Shown here: piece after piece, positions 19,309-28,594 of the stretch
Layout of the letters: every line of letters starts with the position of its first letter
Numbering within the stretch: position 1 is the stretch's first letter
Source: a virus
IMG/VR virus record: IMGVR_UViG_3300021087_000556
Coordinates: 1 to 32,995 of that record
DNA length: 32,995 bases
Reading direction: 5' to 3' (one strand)
Program-made: the position numbers and the translations under genes
The notes under the pieces: generated by a model
The model's database searches: none
Told to the model about the DNA's origin: nothing
Seen by the model: the letters and a program-made list of their open reading frames with translations, nothing else

Positions 19309-19331
19309 CTAAAAGTATTTAGTACTTTTAG
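19309..19331 (-). other. perfect 9-bp hairpin with late-box-like loop
   Basis: CTAAAAGTA and TACTTTTAG form a 9-bp perfect stem with the 5-base loop CTAAA, so the loop and arm include CTAAATA. The hairpin spans the stop codon of the 19328-19726 gene. All-AT arms with few following U argue against a classic terminator. Confidence 0.5.
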
Positions 19332-19726
19332 ATAGAGCCGTATACTTTAAAAGAACCTGTTTCTAATTTCTCCACTCTAAGGTTTAGTGTAACGACTTCT
19401 GTTTTTTCATCAAATTCGTCATGTGGAGTGTCTACGGATTTACCGAATTGGTCTCCATATCTTTTCATACTAACTTGATAATCACCCGATTCAGTAATTT
19501 CAGGGTGTTTATCAAGTGCGAGACCAAGTTGTCCTAGTTTTGCATCGATTTGACCGACAGCAGCACTAGGATTTAAAAATTCACTAACTGCACAATGTCC
19601 AAGAATGGCATTAATTCTTGATTTGACTTCAGGGTCGTTTATGTCATGGGGAACGTGTTGACTTTCTAAACCACCTACTTGTGTATGTGAATGAGTTTCT
19701 GCTATAAATTCTGCAAATTTTTTCAT
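19328..19726 (-). CDS. 132-residue protein with a T4-like capsid-targeting leader
   Basis: The N-terminus MKKFAEFIAE-THSH is very close to the T4 internal-protein capsid-targeting sequence MKTYQEFIAE, which directs proteins into the prohead and is cut after the Glu by the gp21 protease. The rest contains FGKSVDTPHDEFDE and a beta-rich C-terminus LNLRVEKLETGSFKVYGSI. This suggests an internal head protein; the enzymatic role, if any, is unknown. It follows two small virion-like genes. The leader match is seen directly; packaging is inference. Confidence 0.74.
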   Translation of the reverse strand: MKKFAEFIAETHSHTQVGGLESQHVPHDINDPEVKSRINAILGHCAVSEFLNPSAAVGQIDAKLGQLGLALDKHPEITESGDYQVSMKRYGDQFGKSVDTPHDEFDEKTEVVTLNLRVEKLETGSFKVYGSI

Positions 19727-21452: not shown

Positions 21453-21947
21453 CTAAGCTTTTCTTCTGAAATCGACATCTTTAGGTTCTCTAATTCTCAA
21501 TTTCTTTAGAGTATCTTCAATTGCCTTTACAGTTTTATTTTGGTCTTTGATATTAGTAATGAACAAACTTGTATCTCCGTCTTCCATTGTAGAAAAACCA
21601 ACCTTTTTTTCAATTTTCTCTAGTTCTTTCTTTAACTTTGTATAGTTAGATGGTTTCAAATCCATCAATACGATTTCTTCGTTTACTTCAGATTTTTTTT
21701 TTGCTTCTTCTTCAGTTTCTTCTTTCTTACCGTCTTTACCTTTTTCGGATTCACCATTCCAATTTGCATCGATGTAATCAAAGAATTCCTTCTTCTTTTC
21801 ACCGTCTAATTCTTCAGGAGACGTGACGTTAAATTTCTTCAATACTGAATCAAAGAATTTTTTGTATTCTGCAGATGACTCGATAACTTTTTTAGACGCT
21901 TCTAATAGGTCGTCTGACAACCCTAGTTGAAATCCTGTAAAACTCAT
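21453..21947 (-). CDS. 164-residue charged protein, probable head-associated
   Basis: An N-terminal helical domain (SDDLLEASKKVIESSAEYKK; EFFDYIDANWNG) is joined by a low-complexity Lys/Glu linker (about residues 75-92) to a small alpha/beta domain. LLEA and VNEE look like prohead-protease-type sites. The KKKEFFDYIDANW segment is typical of proteins in T4-like marine phage structural regions. It overlaps the upstream gene by four bases. Confidence 0.68.
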   Translation of the reverse strand: MSFTGFQLGLSDDLLEASKKVIESSAEYKKFFDSVLKKFNVTSPEELDGEKKKEFFDYIDANWNGESEKGKDGKKEETEEEAKKKSEVNEEIVLMDLKPSNYTKLKKELEKIEKKVGFSTMEDGDTSLFITNIKDQNKTVKAIEDTLKKLRIREPKDVDFRRKA

Positions 21948-22276
21948 TGTTCTAACTCTCCTGATTCGAAATAATCGAATAATTTTTGTTTGTTTTCTTC
22001 GTTAAGAGACATTGATTTCGCAAGTCTACCTAACATATTTTTCTCTGTTAACTTATCAACAGAATGAGATTCTTCATCTGATTCTTCAACAACCTCTTCA
22101 ACAGGAGCTTCTTCAGTTACTTCCTCTGAAGGTTCTTCCATTTCATTAAGAAGAGCATCAATCTCTTCATTGATTAACTCCTCTTCAGTCTTTTCTACAA
22201 CAGGTTCGTTTGCCTCTTTCAGACCTTCTCGAACCCTTAAAAGAGCCTCTTTCCAGTTTTCTGTTTTTAGTGTCAT
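21944..22276 (-). CDS. 110-residue very acidic protein
   Basis: After MTLKTENWKEALLRVREGLK comes a Glu-rich, probably disordered centre and a helical end KNMLGRLAKSMSLNEENKQK. LKEA near residue 20 fits the (I/L)-x-E-A pattern. CATAAATA lies five bases before the ATG and no ribosome-binding sequence is seen. Acidic internal proteins are common in T4-type proheads; here that is inference. Confidence 0.66.
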   Translation of the reverse strand: MTLKTENWKEALLRVREGLKEANEPVVEKTEEELINEEIDALLNEMEEPSEEVTEEAPVEEVVEESDEESHSVDKLTEKNMLGRLAKSMSLNEENKQKLFDYFESGELEQ

Positions 22277-22536: not shown

Positions 22537-22557
22537 TAACCTTCCCTATATTTAGTA

Positions 22558-24885
22558 CTAACTTTTAATAGATTTTATGAAGTCTCTTTTACCTGCTTTG
22601 TACATTTGCACAACACCACTATGGTCTGTTATCATGTACATTGACTGGATTGCTTCTAATTCTTTTGGTTTTAACCCTTTAATCTCTTTATTCCAGTAGT
22701 TCGCAATGTTCTTGTTAACTCCTTTCTTCTGAGGTATATATTGGTCGCCTTCAAGCTTTATATCACCTGCAATTGGTGAGTTTTCTTTGAACATGAATCC
22801 TACTTCAGGAACCTTTTGTTCTGTTCCATAGTTTGCATAGTTAAGTGCTTTTACAACGTCCTTATTCTTTGAGAGACCTTTCTTCATCTTCTCAATACCT
22901 TTGATTGCGTAGGTCATTGCGCCGCCATGGTCGAGTGCGAACTCAACTGCTTTTCTTACTTGTTTATCTCTGACCTTATGTCTTCGGAAGTATACTGAAA
23001 TTTCTTGTCCAGTAAGTTTAGAACCGTCCATTTTACCTTCTTTGATACCCAACTCTTTCATTTTTGCTTTAATGATAGGTCTTGCATCACCTTTTGGATT
23101 TTTCTGACCTGCTTTATATAAGTCATCAAACAAACCATCATCACCAATAAGGTCATACAGTTTGTCAGAGGCATCATCACCGTCTTTACCTAAGACAACT
23201 GGTTTCTTCAACAAGTCTTTTAATTCTTTCTTTTGTTTAGAAGTCTTTGGTAATGCCCATGTTCCTTCACTAATTGATTCACCGTCATGTTCAACATGAG
23301 CATAATCAACTCCAGGCTTTCCGTATTTCTTCTTAATCTTTTCTACTTTTTTGGCTAAAGGATTAAGACCTAAATCTTCATCTGATTCAATACCTACAGA
23401 AAAACCACTCTTACCACCTCTGAATTTTTCTTGGTCTATCGTAACATTTTTTGTTACACTTTTGATATATGGGTCTTTAAGGAAATTGTCTAAAGATTTC
23501 TTATTATAGAATACAAATCCCCAATTACTCTCACTAATTGATTCTTTGATTTTACCTTTCATTATATCGTCTAAATCTCTGTCTAACCAATCAATAAAAT
23601 CATCAGGGTCATCGGTGTTAACTTCACCATTATCCATTGCCCATTGCATTAAGTCGGCTTCTAATTTTTTGGATAGTTCTAGATTACCACTTCTTTGTAC
23701 TTTCTGAAGTTCTCTTTTGTGTTTACGAACGATGTCTTTCATCTTCATAGACCTTTCGTTTAAAGTTTCTTCTTTAACACCCATTACTTTATGTGCAATG
23801 TGTACTAGAGTTTGAATGTTTGATTTCTCCATTTTACCTTTGTTTTGGTCGTTTACTTTATCGTAAACTGTTAAAATCATAGATGCAGTGAACATATCTA
23901 ACATGATTCCACCAACTTTTGTTGCAGATTTAGTATCCACAATCTTTTTGATATCTGGCATTAAGTCTTTTGCTTCAAGTAATGAATCATAGTTTCTAAG
24001 AATTTCTTCACCCATTTTCATAGGTTTCTTCTTTTGACTGTAGTAATCTTTAAGAAATTCTTTTGCTTGTGCAATTGAAACTGGATAGTCTCTTGCGATT
24101 TCTTTTGCTGTCGCACCATTTTGAATGTCTTGGAATAGTTCACCCATTTTACCTTCTTCGAGGTCGTCATTGATTGATTCTGTAATACCAAGTTTTTTCA
24201 TCTCTTTTTCAATCTCTTTGTTGATTGATTTAAGAGCATTTAATGAAGGATTTGCAACCCCTGACTTGTTTTGAGCTTTGTCAATTGCTTGCATCTCTTT
24301 TGCTTTCTTCATTAGTAAGTCTGAGTATTTTGCATACTTACCTTCTTCTATTTCAACAGACTCACCCAGTACTTTAATTCCTTTACTCTTAAATTTTTTC
24401 AGAACTTCAAGACCAACTTTACCAGCATCATCACCTTGTATATACATATCTCCGTCCGACCAACTACTCATTCCACTACCTGTTATTTGGTCAGCATCAA
24501 TGTCTTCTATATCTAGTCTATCAGATACATCTTTGGTAAAATTAAAGATAGCATATGCATCCTTTTTCTTTATATTTCTAACAACAACATCATAATGATT
24601 CTTTTTTACAGGTTTATAGTTAGGTCTGCTTGCTTCTGATACAGTTTCTTCTAGGGGTTTAACGAAGTTATCGTCAAGTTCTTCATTGTAAGGGAAACCT
24701 TTAAGGGGATTTTGGAATACCTGCATGAAAGACTTTTTCTGTTTGTCTTTCTTCTCTTCAATCACTTCTTTGATACCTGCAAGATACTTCTCTACACTTT
24801 GGTTAGGTGTATCCTCTTGGTATGCCTTCAAAGTTTCAGGAGTTCCAACTTCGTGGACTCCATTATTGTGTTTATTTCCTGCCAT
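22558..24885 (-). CDS. 775-residue multi-segment virion-region protein with repeated protease-type sites
   Basis: The start at 24885 (MAGNKHNNGVHEVGTPETLK) is chosen because AAAAAAGGGGATAAT precedes it and the upstream gene ends at 24890. The protein is a string of small Lys/Glu-rich domains. Their joints carry (I/L/V)-x-E-(G/A/S): VSEA 82-85, IEEG 179-182, LEEG 242-245, LLEA 302-305, ISES 450-453, ISEG 538-541 and IKEG 614-617. T4 gp21 prohead protease cuts at such sequences. No enzyme domain is recognised. It may be a head-interior polyprotein cut into about eight pieces; processing is inferred. Confidence 0.74.
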   Translation of the reverse strand: MAGNKHNNGVHEVGTPETLKAYQEDTPNQSVEKYLAGIKEVIEEKKDKQKKSFMQVFQNPLKGFPYNEELDDNFVKPLEETVSEASRPNYKPVKKNHYDVVVRNIKKKDAYAIFNFTKDVSDRLDIEDIDADQITGSGMSSWSDGDMYIQGDDAGKVGLEVLKKFKSKGIKVLGESVEIEEGKYAKYSDLLMKKAKEMQAIDKAQNKSGVANPSLNALKSINKEIEKEMKKLGITESINDDLEEGKMGELFQDIQNGATAKEIARDYPVSIAQAKEFLKDYYSQKKKPMKMGEEILRNYDSLLEAKDLMPDIKKIVDTKSATKVGGIMLDMFTASMILTVYDKVNDQNKGKMEKSNIQTLVHIAHKVMGVKEETLNERSMKMKDIVRKHKRELQKVQRSGNLELSKKLEADLMQWAMDNGEVNTDDPDDFIDWLDRDLDDIMKGKIKESISESNWGFVFYNKKSLDNFLKDPYIKSVTKNVTIDQEKFRGGKSGFSVGIESDEDLGLNPLAKKVEKIKKKYGKPGVDYAHVEHDGESISEGTWALPKTSKQKKELKDLLKKPVVLGKDGDDASDKLYDLIGDDGLFDDLYKAGQKNPKGDARPIIKAKMKELGIKEGKMDGSKLTGQEISVYFRRHKVRDKQVRKAVEFALDHGGAMTYAIKGIEKMKKGLSKNKDVVKALNYANYGTEQKVPEVGFMFKENSPIAGDIKLEGDQYIPQKKGVNKNIANYWNKEIKGLKPKELEAIQSMYMITDHSGVVQMYKAGKRDFIKSIKS

Positions 24886-24889
24886 TTTA

Positions 24890-25783
24890 TTATCCCCTTT
24901 TTTGATTTGCATAATAGGCTGCAACTGCCATTTTTTTAATTTCTTCTGCACTTTGGTTTTTAAACTGAGGTGCATCTGAACTTTTGAAATCGTTTATAAA
25001 ATCTTTTATCGATGCGTTTTTACTTAACTTCTCTCTAAGTCTAGGTTCTGTTCTGTTATACTTCTGAGATACAACCGATAAATTACCCTTGTCATTATTT
25101 AATGGATTATTGTCCTTATGATGAACATCTTTCTTATCAAAAGGTTTTACCTTTCCTTCTTTTTCTAATGCTCTTCTTGCTCTTTTACGAGCTGCATTTT
25201 TTTCCATTTGTTCTGGCCTAGAATGATAGTTTGCTCTTTCTTTAGCATAGTTCCTACCTTCTTCTATATCATCACCAAACTTAAGGAACAACTTTCCTTT
25301 TTCTTGTTTCTTATCTGTAATCTTCGCACCAACAAATGACCCTAAAGTATTTAACATACCAAGACCTTTCTCTTGGTTCCTTGTAATCTCTTTACCAACT
25401 TGGTTATTAATCTTTTTCATAACCGTATCAATGATGTGTTGGATGTCTGAGACTAATTTACCTTCTTCAACAGACTCATTTGCAGATTGTTTCTCTGATG
25501 CTTTTCTTTCTGCATCACGTTTCTTTTTAATTGCAGTATCTACAGTTTCTTTCTCTTTTGCGCCTGCAAGTCTTTCATTTTCTCTATCATGTTCATCTTG
25601 AAGTGCTTCGACTTCTTGTTCATGTTTCGCTTTAAGTCTTTCCATTTCCTCAACTTGTTTCGCTTTTGCAAGTGCAGTCTGCACTGCAACGTTGTCTTCT
25701 TCTGCAAATAAAGACTTAAAGTTCTCTACTTTATCATCACGAGAACCTTTTTGTGCGTTAAGTATTTGGTTTAAAATATCCAT
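24890..25783 (-). CDS. coiled-coil protein with C-terminal HNH nuclease-like domain
   Basis: A 297-residue protein. Residues 1-100 form a charged coiled coil. VEEG (105-108) and IEEG (173-176) flank a middle segment. The C-terminal part has HSRPEQ and then DVHHKDNNPLNNDKGNLSVV (219-238), the His-His/Asn/Asn pattern of HNH endonucleases. Similar HNH segments occur in T4-like marine phage proteins. The HNH part starts just after the second protease-type site, so cleavage would free it. CATAAATA lies six bases before the ATG. Confidence 0.72.
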   Translation of the reverse strand: MDILNQILNAQKGSRDDKVENFKSLFAEEDNVAVQTALAKAKQVEEMERLKAKHEQEVEALQDEHDRENERLAGAKEKETVDTAIKKKRDAERKASEKQSANESVEEGKLVSDIQHIIDTVMKKINNQVGKEITRNQEKGLGMLNTLGSFVGAKITDKKQEKGKLFLKFGDDIEEGRNYAKERANYHSRPEQMEKNAARKRARRALEKEGKVKPFDKKDVHHKDNNPLNNDKGNLSVVSQKYNRTEPRLREKLSKNASIKDFINDFKSSDAPQFKNQSAEEIKKMAVAAYYANQKRG

Positions 25784-25788
25784 ATAAT

Positions 25789-27090
25789 CTATTTATGCTT
25801 TTTAGCAATTAACTCCTGTTCTTTCCATGCGAGAGCAACCTTATTAGTGGGGAATTTAGTACACCAAGTCATCATTGCACCATATAACTTAGACGCTTTA
25901 CCCTGTAATGATTGAACAGTATCGTCATTAACGATTTCTATAAAGTCCTTTTTAAATATTCTCTTGAATATATCTGCATTTTTCTCTACTGCCTCATGTT
26001 CTTTCACTAGAATCTCAGGTGGTAGTGTTCTTGCTCTCATTGAATTGAGTCGTTGTGCAAGGTCTAGACTTGTTTTAACAAATACCATTTTATACTCATA
26101 TCCTAATGCATCTAGATTCTTCTTATACCCCTGAATCTTACCTGCTTTTGCACTTGTAGTGTCAAAGATTAATCCCAGTCTTGCAGGAACATGGATATCC
26201 ATTTGTTTGGTTGCAATACCTTTTGCCTTTGCACGAAGTTTATCTCTTTCGGGGTTGACTGTTCCACTACCAGTCTTAGTCATTTTCATAGACATTTTTG
26301 CATCTTTCATAAGTCGTTCAAAGTGAGTGTCACTATTGATTGTTTTAAGTCCTAGTGCCTTAAGTGAGAGTGCATCAACCACTGTTGATTTACCTGAACC
26401 TGGCCCACCCATTAAGAAAACTGCTTTGAATATGCCTGGGTCGTAAACACCTTCTTGTAATAGGTCTTCAAACATATAGTTAGGCATTGTTTCTTCTTTA
26501 ATACCCATACCACTTCTAACTTCTTTGTATAGTAGTTCTTGGTCTCTCAAGTTATTAGATGCAACACCTGTTTTAAATGATTCAAAGTCACCCTCTTCTG
26601 CGGCTGCTCTCATTTTACTTGCAGACATTCCTGATACTCCTTCTGCATCAGGGTCTCTTTGACCTGCACTAATAATCTCTATTGAATCAAATTTATAATA
26701 CCCGTGTCTTCCTTTAGAACCATTGTATTTTTTGATAAGAGTTTCAAACTCTCTGACTCGGTCTGAACCTGCAACCATACGAAATTCTCTATACCCTTGA
26801 TTGTATAATTCTGTAACTATTTCAAAAATTGTTCTTGCAGGTGTTTTTACAATTCCCACCTTTTTACCAAAGAATTTTTTCATCCATTTTTGTTTTGTAT
26901 TATAGTCTAATGGATTTGATTTTTTATCATTTGAGTGAGACATAAACACTAGAGGTTTAAAACCACCACCTGTTGCCTTAACAACTTTCTCTACCAATGC
27001 ACCATGTCCAATAGTAGGTGGATTAAATCGACCAAAGGCTATTACTACCTTTTGGGTTGAACTTTCATTAAATTTTCTAAACGTTTTCAT
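25789..27090 (-). CDS. cytidylyltransferase-like (NMNAT-type) domain fused to a P-loop kinase
   Basis: A 433-residue fusion. Residues about 13-180 are a nucleotidyltransferase of the cytidylyltransferase/NMN adenylyltransferase fold: GRFNPPTIGHG (20-30) for HxGH and MSASKMR (155-161) for the ISSTxxR motif. Residues about 220-430 are a P-loop kinase-like domain with GGPGSGKS (228-235). The order recalls NadR, so NAD synthesis is one possibility. LLQEG (210-214) sits exactly between the domains. The N-terminus MKTFRKFNES resembles the T4 capsid-targeting leader. It overlaps the upstream gene by 14 bases. Confidence 0.8.
   Translation of the reverse strand: MKTFRKFNESSTQKVVIAFGRFNPPTIGHGALVEKVVKATGGGFKPLVFMSHSNDKKSNPLDYNTKQKWMKKFFGKKVGIVKTPARTIFEIVTELYNQGYREFRMVAGSDRVREFETLIKKYNGSKGRHGYYKFDSIEIISAGQRDPDAEGVSGMSASKMRAAAEEGDFESFKTGVASNNLRDQELLYKEVRSGMGIKEETMPNYMFEDLLQEGVYDPGIFKAVFLMGGPGSGKSTVVDALSLKALGLKTINSDTHFERLMKDAKMSMKMTKTGSGTVNPERDKLRAKAKGIATKQMDIHVPARLGLIFDTTSAKAGKIQGYKKNLDALGYEYKMVFVKTSLDLAQRLNSMRARTLPPEILVKEHEAVEKNADIFKRIFKKDFIEIVNDDTVQSLQGKASKLYGAMMTWCTKFPTNKVALAWKEQELIAKKHK
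25790..25797 (-). promoter_or_regulatory. late box CATAAATA 6 bases before the HNH-protein start
   Basis: CATAAATA-GATTAT-ATG, overlapping the stop codon (TAG) of the fusion gene. No ribosome-binding sequence intervenes. It has the same layout as at 22282, 32478 and 32968. Confidence 0.5.
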
Positions 27091-27271: not shown

Positions 27272-27360
27272 AATGCTCCATAAGCTATTATTCCAAGAAA
27301 AACAAACTCATCAAGTAACATTATTCCTACAAATATTTTAAATAGTAATAACTTCATCAT
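27268..27360 (-). CDS. 30-residue membrane micropeptide
   Basis: MMKLLLFKIFVGIMLLDEFV, then FLGIIAYGAL: two short hydrophobic stretches around an Asp-Glu pair. ATG at 27360 overlaps the stop of the ligase-like gene (ATGATG), and its TGA overlaps the next ATG. Such precise packing with both neighbours supports a real gene. Confidence 0.6.
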   Translation of the reverse strand: MMKLLLFKIFVGIMLLDEFVFLGIIAYGAL

Positions 27361-28562
27361 TTGTCCCATGCCTTAGCGGCGTTAAAATTGTTTTGACTGA
27401 ACTCCATTCTATCCACAAGTTTTACTGCAGAACCGTCTGAGTCGATTGCAACATAACCTTCGGGGTTTACAACCTTGAATCCTTTATCAGTCTTTACAAA
27501 AGTTCCTATACTCTTTACTCTATTTAGAGCAGTCACAATCAATGATTTTGAATCTATCAAATGTCCTTGAAATTTTGCAAGGTTGTCTACCATTTTTGAA
27601 ATTGTTCTTAAGTCTCTCATGATATCTTTACCAATCTGTATCTTGATATCTTTAGTCTTTTGTGTTTTAACTTTTGCGACTATTTTATCCTTCCAGTAGT
27701 TCTCAACGTGTGTAAGGTAGTCTTTTCCATTGGGATTCCATTTATTATTACGGATAAGGGTGTTAGTGTATGTTTTGTACGATGCACCTGCAGCTCCTTT
27801 TGAATTAAGAACTCCCTGTACGTCATTGAACTTTTTGAGGTCTTTCCCAGTGATACCATGAAATGCTTTACCTGTATTAGTAAGTGCTTGTGTAAGTTTA
27901 AGTGTTTCTTGTGCAGTCATGTTTCCATAACCAGTAGTGTCTTTGTAAGTTGCATCGTCTTGCCAAACCTTAGACGATGAAGGTGGAAGTTTTGCACCGA
28001 ATGATGCAGACAAACCTTCGATTGTTGAACCCTTGTAAGTTGTGTGCCAAACTACACCTAGTGTCGCACTTCCTATTTCTTTTCCTAACTTCGAGTCTTT
28101 CTGAACTGCGTACATAATTGTGTTTGGTTGGAATGTAATGTACTCCTTTCCGTCCATTTTAGTATTACTTTTATCTCCCGAAGTAAACATTAAGTCTCCT
28201 TGCAGGATTTCTTTCATTCCGACACCTGAAAAGGCGTTGAATGCTTCAGTGAATTTTGTTTTGAGTGTACCGTTTAAGTCGGAAGTGTCATTGATTTCTT
28301 TTATACTAGAATAGTACAATGCACCACCTTTATTGAATAGTGATTTCTTTGCGATAAAGAATTTTCCTGTTTCGGGGTGAGGGCCACACCAAATTGCAGG
28401 AGCACCGTCCCACTTAACAGTCATGTTGACACGACCTGATGCATTACCTTTCATCATATCTCTTAACTCTCTTAAGAAATTGATTGATGCACGACCACCT
28501 GCGATGCCATAGTTAATGATTTCGTCTTCGAGGTGTTCTAAATGTAAGTTCTTTCCAGCCAT
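27357..28562 (-). CDS. covalent nucleotidyltransferase (RNA/DNA ligase-like) protein, DUF6267-type
   Basis: The ATG at 28562 (MAGKNLHLEHLEDEI) is used; a TTG at 28580 could extend it by six residues. It is 401 residues. Ligase-type motifs appear in order: K50-W-D-G53 (motif I, lysine attacked by NTP), QGDLMF at 121-126 (motif III-like), EGYVA at 368-372 (motif IV-like) and VKLVDR at 380-385 (motif V-like). The KWDGAPAIW segment is characteristic of a phage family I know as DUF6267. The activity is unproven; it may seal or cap RNA or DNA ends. It has its own promoter region and sits between virion-type genes. Confidence 0.72.
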   Translation of the reverse strand: MAGKNLHLEHLEDEIINYGIAGGRASINFLRELRDMMKGNASGRVNMTVKWDGAPAIWCGPHPETGKFFIAKKSLFNKGGALYYSSIKEINDTSDLNGTLKTKFTEAFNAFSGVGMKEILQGDLMFTSGDKSNTKMDGKEYITFQPNTIMYAVQKDSKLGKEIGSATLGVVWHTTYKGSTIEGLSASFGAKLPPSSSKVWQDDATYKDTTGYGNMTAQETLKLTQALTNTGKAFHGITGKDLKKFNDVQGVLNSKGAAGASYKTYTNTLIRNNKWNPNGKDYLTHVENYWKDKIVAKVKTQKTKDIKIQIGKDIMRDLRTISKMVDNLAKFQGHLIDSKSLIVTALNRVKSIGTFVKTDKGFKVVNPEGYVAIDSDGSAVKLVDRMEFSQNNFNAAKAWDK

Positions 28563-28594
28563 AAGTTTAGTCTGTTGCAATTAATTATATTGTA

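Follow-up and report, generated by a model that had tools for sequence, protein, structure and literature searches.

Is a 775-residue protein of an uncultivated marine T4-like virus a string of small proteins, meant to be cut apart at recurring (I/L/V)xE(G/A/S) motifs? The question arises at one locus of a 33-kb uncultivated virus record (32,995 nucleotides), the whole of which is here called the window. Its gene order is uvsX, a gp41-like helicase, DUF6267, a cytidylyltransferase, the polyprotein locus, an S-layer-like protein, a gp61-like primase, nrdA and nrdB. Three T4-like marine phages, S-SM1, HTVC008M and Melnitz, have a matching order.

Ten motif sites in a 775-residue protein

The minus strand of positions 22558-24885 carries a gene of 775 codons for a protein of 775 residues, with its stop codon at 22558-22560. 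A plus-strand reading of the same interval was dropped on account of its many stops. An upstream in-frame ATG would extend the open reading frame to 805 residues. The 775-residue form is the likely one: AAAAAGGGGATAATAAA and the stop codon of the preceding gene lie just ahead of ATG 24885, and homologues begin at the same residue.

The original prediction had listed seven (I/L/V)xE(G/A/S) motifs, numbered by their first residue, and each is present at its place. Three additional sites have the same form: LGE|S (P1 Glu 175), ITE|S (236) and IKE|S (448). The P1 Glu residues of the ten sites are 84, 175, 181, 236, 244, 304, 448, 452, 540 and 616. Composition-preserving shuffles contained 2.3 ± 1.5 such motifs, and none of 5000 reached ten. 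Control motifs stayed at background, whether the last position was changed ([ILV]xE[not GAS], 8 observed and 9.7 shuffled), Glu was replaced by Lys ([ILV]xK[GAS], 6 and 4.5) or Asp ([ILV]xD[GAS], 0 and 2.5), or the motif was reversed (3 and 2.3). No other protein of the window was as enriched. These counts favour the proposal of protease sites over chance in a Glu-rich protein. The spacing, which had been called regular, is so only loosely: three doublets lie 4-8 residues apart (175/181, 236/244 and 448/452), and the other gaps range from 55 to 159 residues.

The modules and joints lie along the gene as follows.

22558..24885, minus strand: modular polyprotein gene, with an SD-like AAAAGGGGAT before ATG 24885 and with homologues
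24634..24885, minus strand: module N, residues 1-84, GNKHNNGVHEVGT..TPNQ (TPGQ in homologues)..NPLKGFPYNEE; proposed core-targeting module
24631..24642, minus strand: joint VSE|A, P1 Glu 84
24361..24633, minus strand: module I, residues 85-175, NHYDV...KVLGE
24358..24369, minus strand: joint LGE|S, P1 Glu 175, a doublet with 181
24340..24351, minus strand: joint IEE|G, P1 Glu 181; in other contigs, homology to module C at the DNA level begins 3-9 nt away
24178..24342, minus strand: module C, residues 182-236, KYAKYSDLLMKKAKEM...; 22 loci found, many in other contexts
24175..24186, minus strand: joint ITE|S, P1 Glu 236, a doublet with 244
24151..24162, minus strand: joint LEE|G, P1 Glu 244; a homology breakpoint lies within about 10 nt
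23974..24153, minus strand: module D, residues 245-304, KMGELFQDIQNGATAKEIA...
23971..23982, minus strand: joint LLE|A, P1 Glu 304; homology begins 1-4 nt away in L013, L127, L200, L209 and others
23755..23973, minus strand: module E, residues 305-377, KDLMPDIKKIV...; ends VKE|E (372) and LNE|R (377), with breakpoints at nt 1204 and 1227 of the 805-residue frame
23542..23754, minus strand: module A, residues 378-448, MKMKDIVRKHKREL...; 86 relatives in viral contigs
23527..23550, minus strand: double joint IKE|SISE|S, P1 Glu 448 and 452; the DNA homology of most relatives stops exactly at nt 1434, at IKE|S
23266..23529, minus strand: module F, residues 453-540, NWGFVFYNKKSLDNF...
23263..23274, minus strand: joint ISE|G, P1 Glu 540
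23038..23265, minus strand: module G, residues 541-616, TWALPKTSKQKKELKDLL...
23035..23046, minus strand: joint IKE|G, P1 Glu 616; homology begins 0-7 nt away in more than 20 contigs
22561..23037, minus strand: modules B (KLTGQEISVYFRR...) and H (QKKGVNKNIANYWNKEIKGL...), residues 617-775, with no site between B and H

Module N comes first in 47 multi-module proteins and last in 9. Module B has 234 relatives, and in the B/H region the breakpoints, at nt 2150 and 2207, lack a joint. The predicted cut products are module fragments of about 6-18 kDa and spacers of 4-8 residues; the N-termini predicted for fragments include GKYAK, GKMGE, AKDLM, SNWGF, GTWAL and GKMDG.

Viral contigs carry the 775-residue protein at 34 loci. 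It had no match among annotated phage records, and no isolate in that collection has it. Sequence searches of Pfam, PHROG and PDB gave no match either, and we found no relation to known families; in other members of the family, DUF5824 in module Q and some PHROGs of unknown function were about all that matched. In a sequence search of solved structures with module A, the three matches below E=0.01 were designed repeat proteins aligning over short helices, and were rejected.

Shuffled modules and the prohead protease of relatives

Homologues of the protein do not align end to end. Instead, the same modules recur in different orders, in other proteins and, rarely, alone; in uncultivated relatives they are about 45-110 residues long. 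Scored with 18 module profiles, the proteins that have at least two modules number 154 and fall into 70 architectures. The window protein reads N-I-C-D-E-A-F-G-B-H, and relatives read N-A-E-D-B-H, N-E-A-K-D-B-H, N-D-E-A-B-H, N-G-P-E-C-A-D-B-H or B-A-L-J-K-C-P. Module A has 14 different upstream partners. Module proteins of other phages reach 1179 residues (L181:5947-9483 and similar) and have long stretches outside the 18 profiles, so the repertoire is larger than described here.

Which protease might cut such proteins? T4 gp21 cleaves after L/I-X-E, and in T4 IPIII an Asp in place of this Glu abolishes processing (PMC9026906). Twelve related contigs that carry the modules encode a gp21-type peptidase S77 together with gp23; both were seen in relatives only, as neither lies in the window, which is a fragment. 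At the T4 cleavage position, just before mature gp23, these relatives have LEE|A, LDE|A, LGE|A, ISE|A or LNE|T, and their gp22 starts with VLE|A, LLE|A or IQE|A. Small proteins beside gp21 start MKSFASMSRELYE|AK or MKTFSSISNELRE|AK, resembling T4 targeting peptides. When the open reading frames of Melnitz were ranked by the motif, gp21 came first and gp22 second. Among the S-SM1 frames examined, which leave out about 25 kb, the cytidylyltransferase GC190 came first and gp21 third. In HTVC008M gp21 was again first, and the proteins of the locus were not among the most enriched.

The motif of the joints is thus the one expected of the relatives' gp21-type protease, and their gp23 carries it where cleavage is expected, in line with the protease-site reading of the original prediction. 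With ten sites at module borders in the window protein and the same motif before mature gp23, the joints are, as far as sequence can tell, very probably real gp21 sites. We infer cleavage after the joint Glu because both motif and position agree with gp21 sites.

A gp21 substrate could also be a part of the prohead core, scaffold-like as are gp22, gp67 and gp68, which gp21 would cut at many sites and whose fragments would exit the head, with no role after ejection. The gp22 of this clade is itself rich in the motif (70 against 28 after shuffling, over eight partly overlapping gp22 frames), and cleavage in T4 likewise divides core proteins into many pieces (PMC9026906). However, while the scaffold gp22 of the same phages shares the motif and has many sites, it is long and unshuffled, belongs to the head gene cluster and has sites throughout the protein. 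Here compact conserved modules swap whole, most with several partners, and the motif, common inside gp22, is nearly absent within them (0.04 per 100 residues, against 2.8 in linkers). The gene also lies in a replication-side cluster with the cytidylyltransferase, DUF6267 and HNH genes rather than beside gp20-gp23; the protein has no PHROG match, is encoded at a different locus from gp21 and gp23, and the clade has its own, separate gp22. We consider a core role unlikely.

Joints at module borders

A comparison of homologues had been suggested as a check on the sites. It came out in their favour: linkers and neighbouring modules differ between relatives, while the module borders retain an (I/L/V)xE joint. 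We counted 141 motifs over 184 distinct linkers, against 21 ± 5 after each linker was shuffled; linkers of related phages are not independent and z-scores overstate the significance, so the figure by pair type is safer, with the motif present on average in 65% across 79 module-pair types. As the seed modules had been cut by eye at joints, this linker test is partly circular. So is a test of spacing in 320 upstream flanks, where [ILVMF]xE was found in 92% (47% shuffled), and both [ILVMF]xxE (47% and 44%) and [ILVMF]E (44% and 50%) stayed at background. The P3 residue in these flanks was Leu in 38%, Ile in 30% and Val in 21%.

The linker test was rerun on 83 linkers, which come from 44 types of module pair that do not occur in the seed proteins. 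[ILV]xE[GAS] was present in 69% of them, against 11% after shuffling, and [ILV]xE in 99%, against 54%. [ILV]E[GAS] and [ILV]xK[GAS] were not raised, and [ILV]xxE[GAS] and the reversed motif rose only about twofold. In about 30% of linkers, [ILV]xE is followed by N, K, D, E or R instead of G/A/S. Breakpoints defined by BLAST, and hence blind to the motif, gave a similar picture: 69% of sites lay within 8 residues of one, against 23% at random, and the Lys and Asp analogues did not (22% against 24%, and 14% against 22%). On the 775-residue gene, DNA breakpoints agree with the joints (p about 0.001-0.014, depending on support level) and with none of the controls, and many fall within a few bases of a joint. 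The linker rerun and the BLAST test replaced a breakpoint test over the whole mosaic superfamily, which was noisy because Glu-rich linkers lift all Glu controls. Sites inside modules numbered 10 where 56 were expected, a depletion that is weak evidence, as the reversed motif is low there too (17 against 53).

Might the joints instead be sites of DNA-level recombination or homing, or mere Glu-rich flexible linkers in a protein that is never cut? DNA homology does stop near the joints, and an HNH gene adjoins. The linkers are indeed Glu-rich, and Glu-containing control motifs, reversed and shifted ones among them, are mildly enriched as well. However, the enrichment needs the exact P3-P1 spacing, and Glu rather than Lys or Asp. 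The Ile, Leu or Val at P3 is encoded by many synonymous codons and P2 is free; the constraint therefore acts on the amino acid, at the level of the protein. The joints also match the clade's own gp23 and gp22 junctions. An uncut protein is in our judgement improbable, somewhat more so than a core component.

Proposed processing and cargo

We favour a polyprotein that is processed by the prohead protease into packaged modules, as a variant of the T4 internal proteins, and give this reading a probability of roughly 0.74. About ten small modules bound for the head would be made from a single gene as one polyprotein. Module N would carry the precursor into the prohead core, perhaps by means of its TPGQ tag, and during head maturation the gp21-type (S77) protease would cut after the Glu of each (I/L/V)xE joint. 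The released fragments would remain in the head with the DNA and probably be ejected into the host, where they may act in takeover or counter-defence. Since each module would end at a cleavable joint, recombination could change the order of modules, or remove or insert some, and leave the adjacent ones intact, which would explain the shuffling between phages. Taken separately, packaging and cutting of the polyprotein are probable on present sequence evidence; that the fragments are ejected effectors is an evenly balanced proposition. We lean slightly towards a general form of the idea, in which each marine T4-like phage strings its own selection of small cargo proteins into polyproteins, from a rapidly reshuffled array. 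Cutting in the prohead by the head-maturation protease would then let a single targeting signal load many effectors in equal amounts.

The original prediction had likened the fragments in size to T4 internal proteins. Fragment size and the probable route fit. The short N-terminal capsid-targeting peptide of T4 type does not: the protein starts MAGNKHNNGVHEV, its first site is at residue 84, and no peptide of about ten residues ending in a gp21 site is present. T4 IPI, IPII, IPIII and Alt are small proteins that are packaged and ejected, mature through gp21 cleavage after L/I-x-E and differ from phage to phage; the predicted fragments would resemble them in these respects. The neighbours of the polyprotein gene do encode T4-like N-terminal peptides (MKTFRKFNE|S and MKKFAEFIAE|T). 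In T4, though, there is one gene and one targeting peptide per protein, whereas here about ten modules share a precursor.

In the giant phages SPN3US and phiKZ, a protease related to gp21 cleaves head ejection proteins after Glu, in some of them at more than one site (PMC10052503). There, however, the multiple cuts break down N-terminal propeptides and a single mature protein remains, and no shuffled module array has been described. Polyvalent proteins of phages and plasmids (PMC5512222) are likewise long and multidomain and occur in many domain combinations; for them, too, packaging and processing into functional units has been proposed. Their domains include known enzymatic ones and often a metallopeptidase of their own, whereas no known domain was found in the present protein; the scissors proposed here are a shared prohead protease acting at joints. 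Several recognisable effector domains would mark a polyvalent protein, and the 775-residue protein, like most other modules, had no match. That it is packaged and ejected intact as a polyvalent-type single chain, as whole ejected multidomain proteins such as the N4 virion RNA polymerase are (PMC5512222), is very improbable, as this leaves the near-universal protease-type joints and the doublets unexplained, and sequence domain searches found no known polyvalent domain or built-in peptidase.

We found no earlier report of a polyprotein of the proposed kind in the open-access literature. If the cuts happen, a tailed phage would be using a viral polyprotein strategy, with many cargo proteins loaded by one signal, and module shuffling at protease sites would have a clear selective reason. 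Dozens of unknown protein families of abundant ocean phages would then be candidates for proteins ejected for takeover or counter-defence, and their exact termini would be predicted.

Three genes upstream of the polyprotein belong to the same cluster.

24890..25783, minus strand: HNH-nuclease neighbour of the same mosaic family, with a coiled-coil N-terminus, module O after VEE|G and HNH (PF13392 HNH_3) after IEE|G
25789..27090, minus strand: cytidylyltransferase with a P-loop kinase/zeta-toxin-like domain; N-terminus MKTFRKFNE|S, like a T4 capsid-targeting peptide
27357..28580, minus strand: DUF6267 protein (PF19782, E=6e-92); order matches Melnitz, HTVC008M and S-SM1

In other phages, the O module of the HNH gene adjoins modules A, L, N, Q and R. 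Because modules are exchanged in this way with those of the polyprotein, the HNH protein is possibly a packaged nuclease. GC190, the S-SM1 relative of the window's cytidylyltransferase, also has a T4-like targeting peptide at its N-terminus (MKKFSAFLNE|A), and others found the protein in S-SM1 virions that had been purified (PMC3037559). A cytidylyltransferase, ORF154, was also found in S-CREM2 virions, where the authors note possible carry-over (PMC10665884).

In most homologues module N contains GT(D/E)xxRxxYxxxTPGQ, with TPNQ in the window protein. In Melnitz, HTVC008M and the S-SM1 regions read, TPGQ/TPGE is confined to proteins of this locus, GC190 included. The pattern makes TPG(Q/E) a candidate head-targeting tag, and our guess that module N may bring the precursor into the core comes from it. 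The wider motif G(T/E)xELTNxY/GTDxxRxxY...TPG(Q/E) occurs in L246:14914-16866, L245:38257-39420 and L041:10218-13179 as well as in module N of the window gene.

Other genes of the window were noted in passing. A 132-residue protein at 19328-19726 (minus strand) starts MKKFAEFIAE|T, very like a T4 internal-protein targeting peptide. Downstream of the polyprotein, 21944-22276 and 21453-21947 (both minus strand) encode small acidic proteins with an early gp21-like site (LRVRE|G and DDLLE|A), and these may possibly be processed likewise. The T4-like late-promoter core CTAAATA has 12 matches in the window, a number not above that in shuffles; all are on the coding strand, and those at 22549, 19316 and 18810 lie just ahead of genes.
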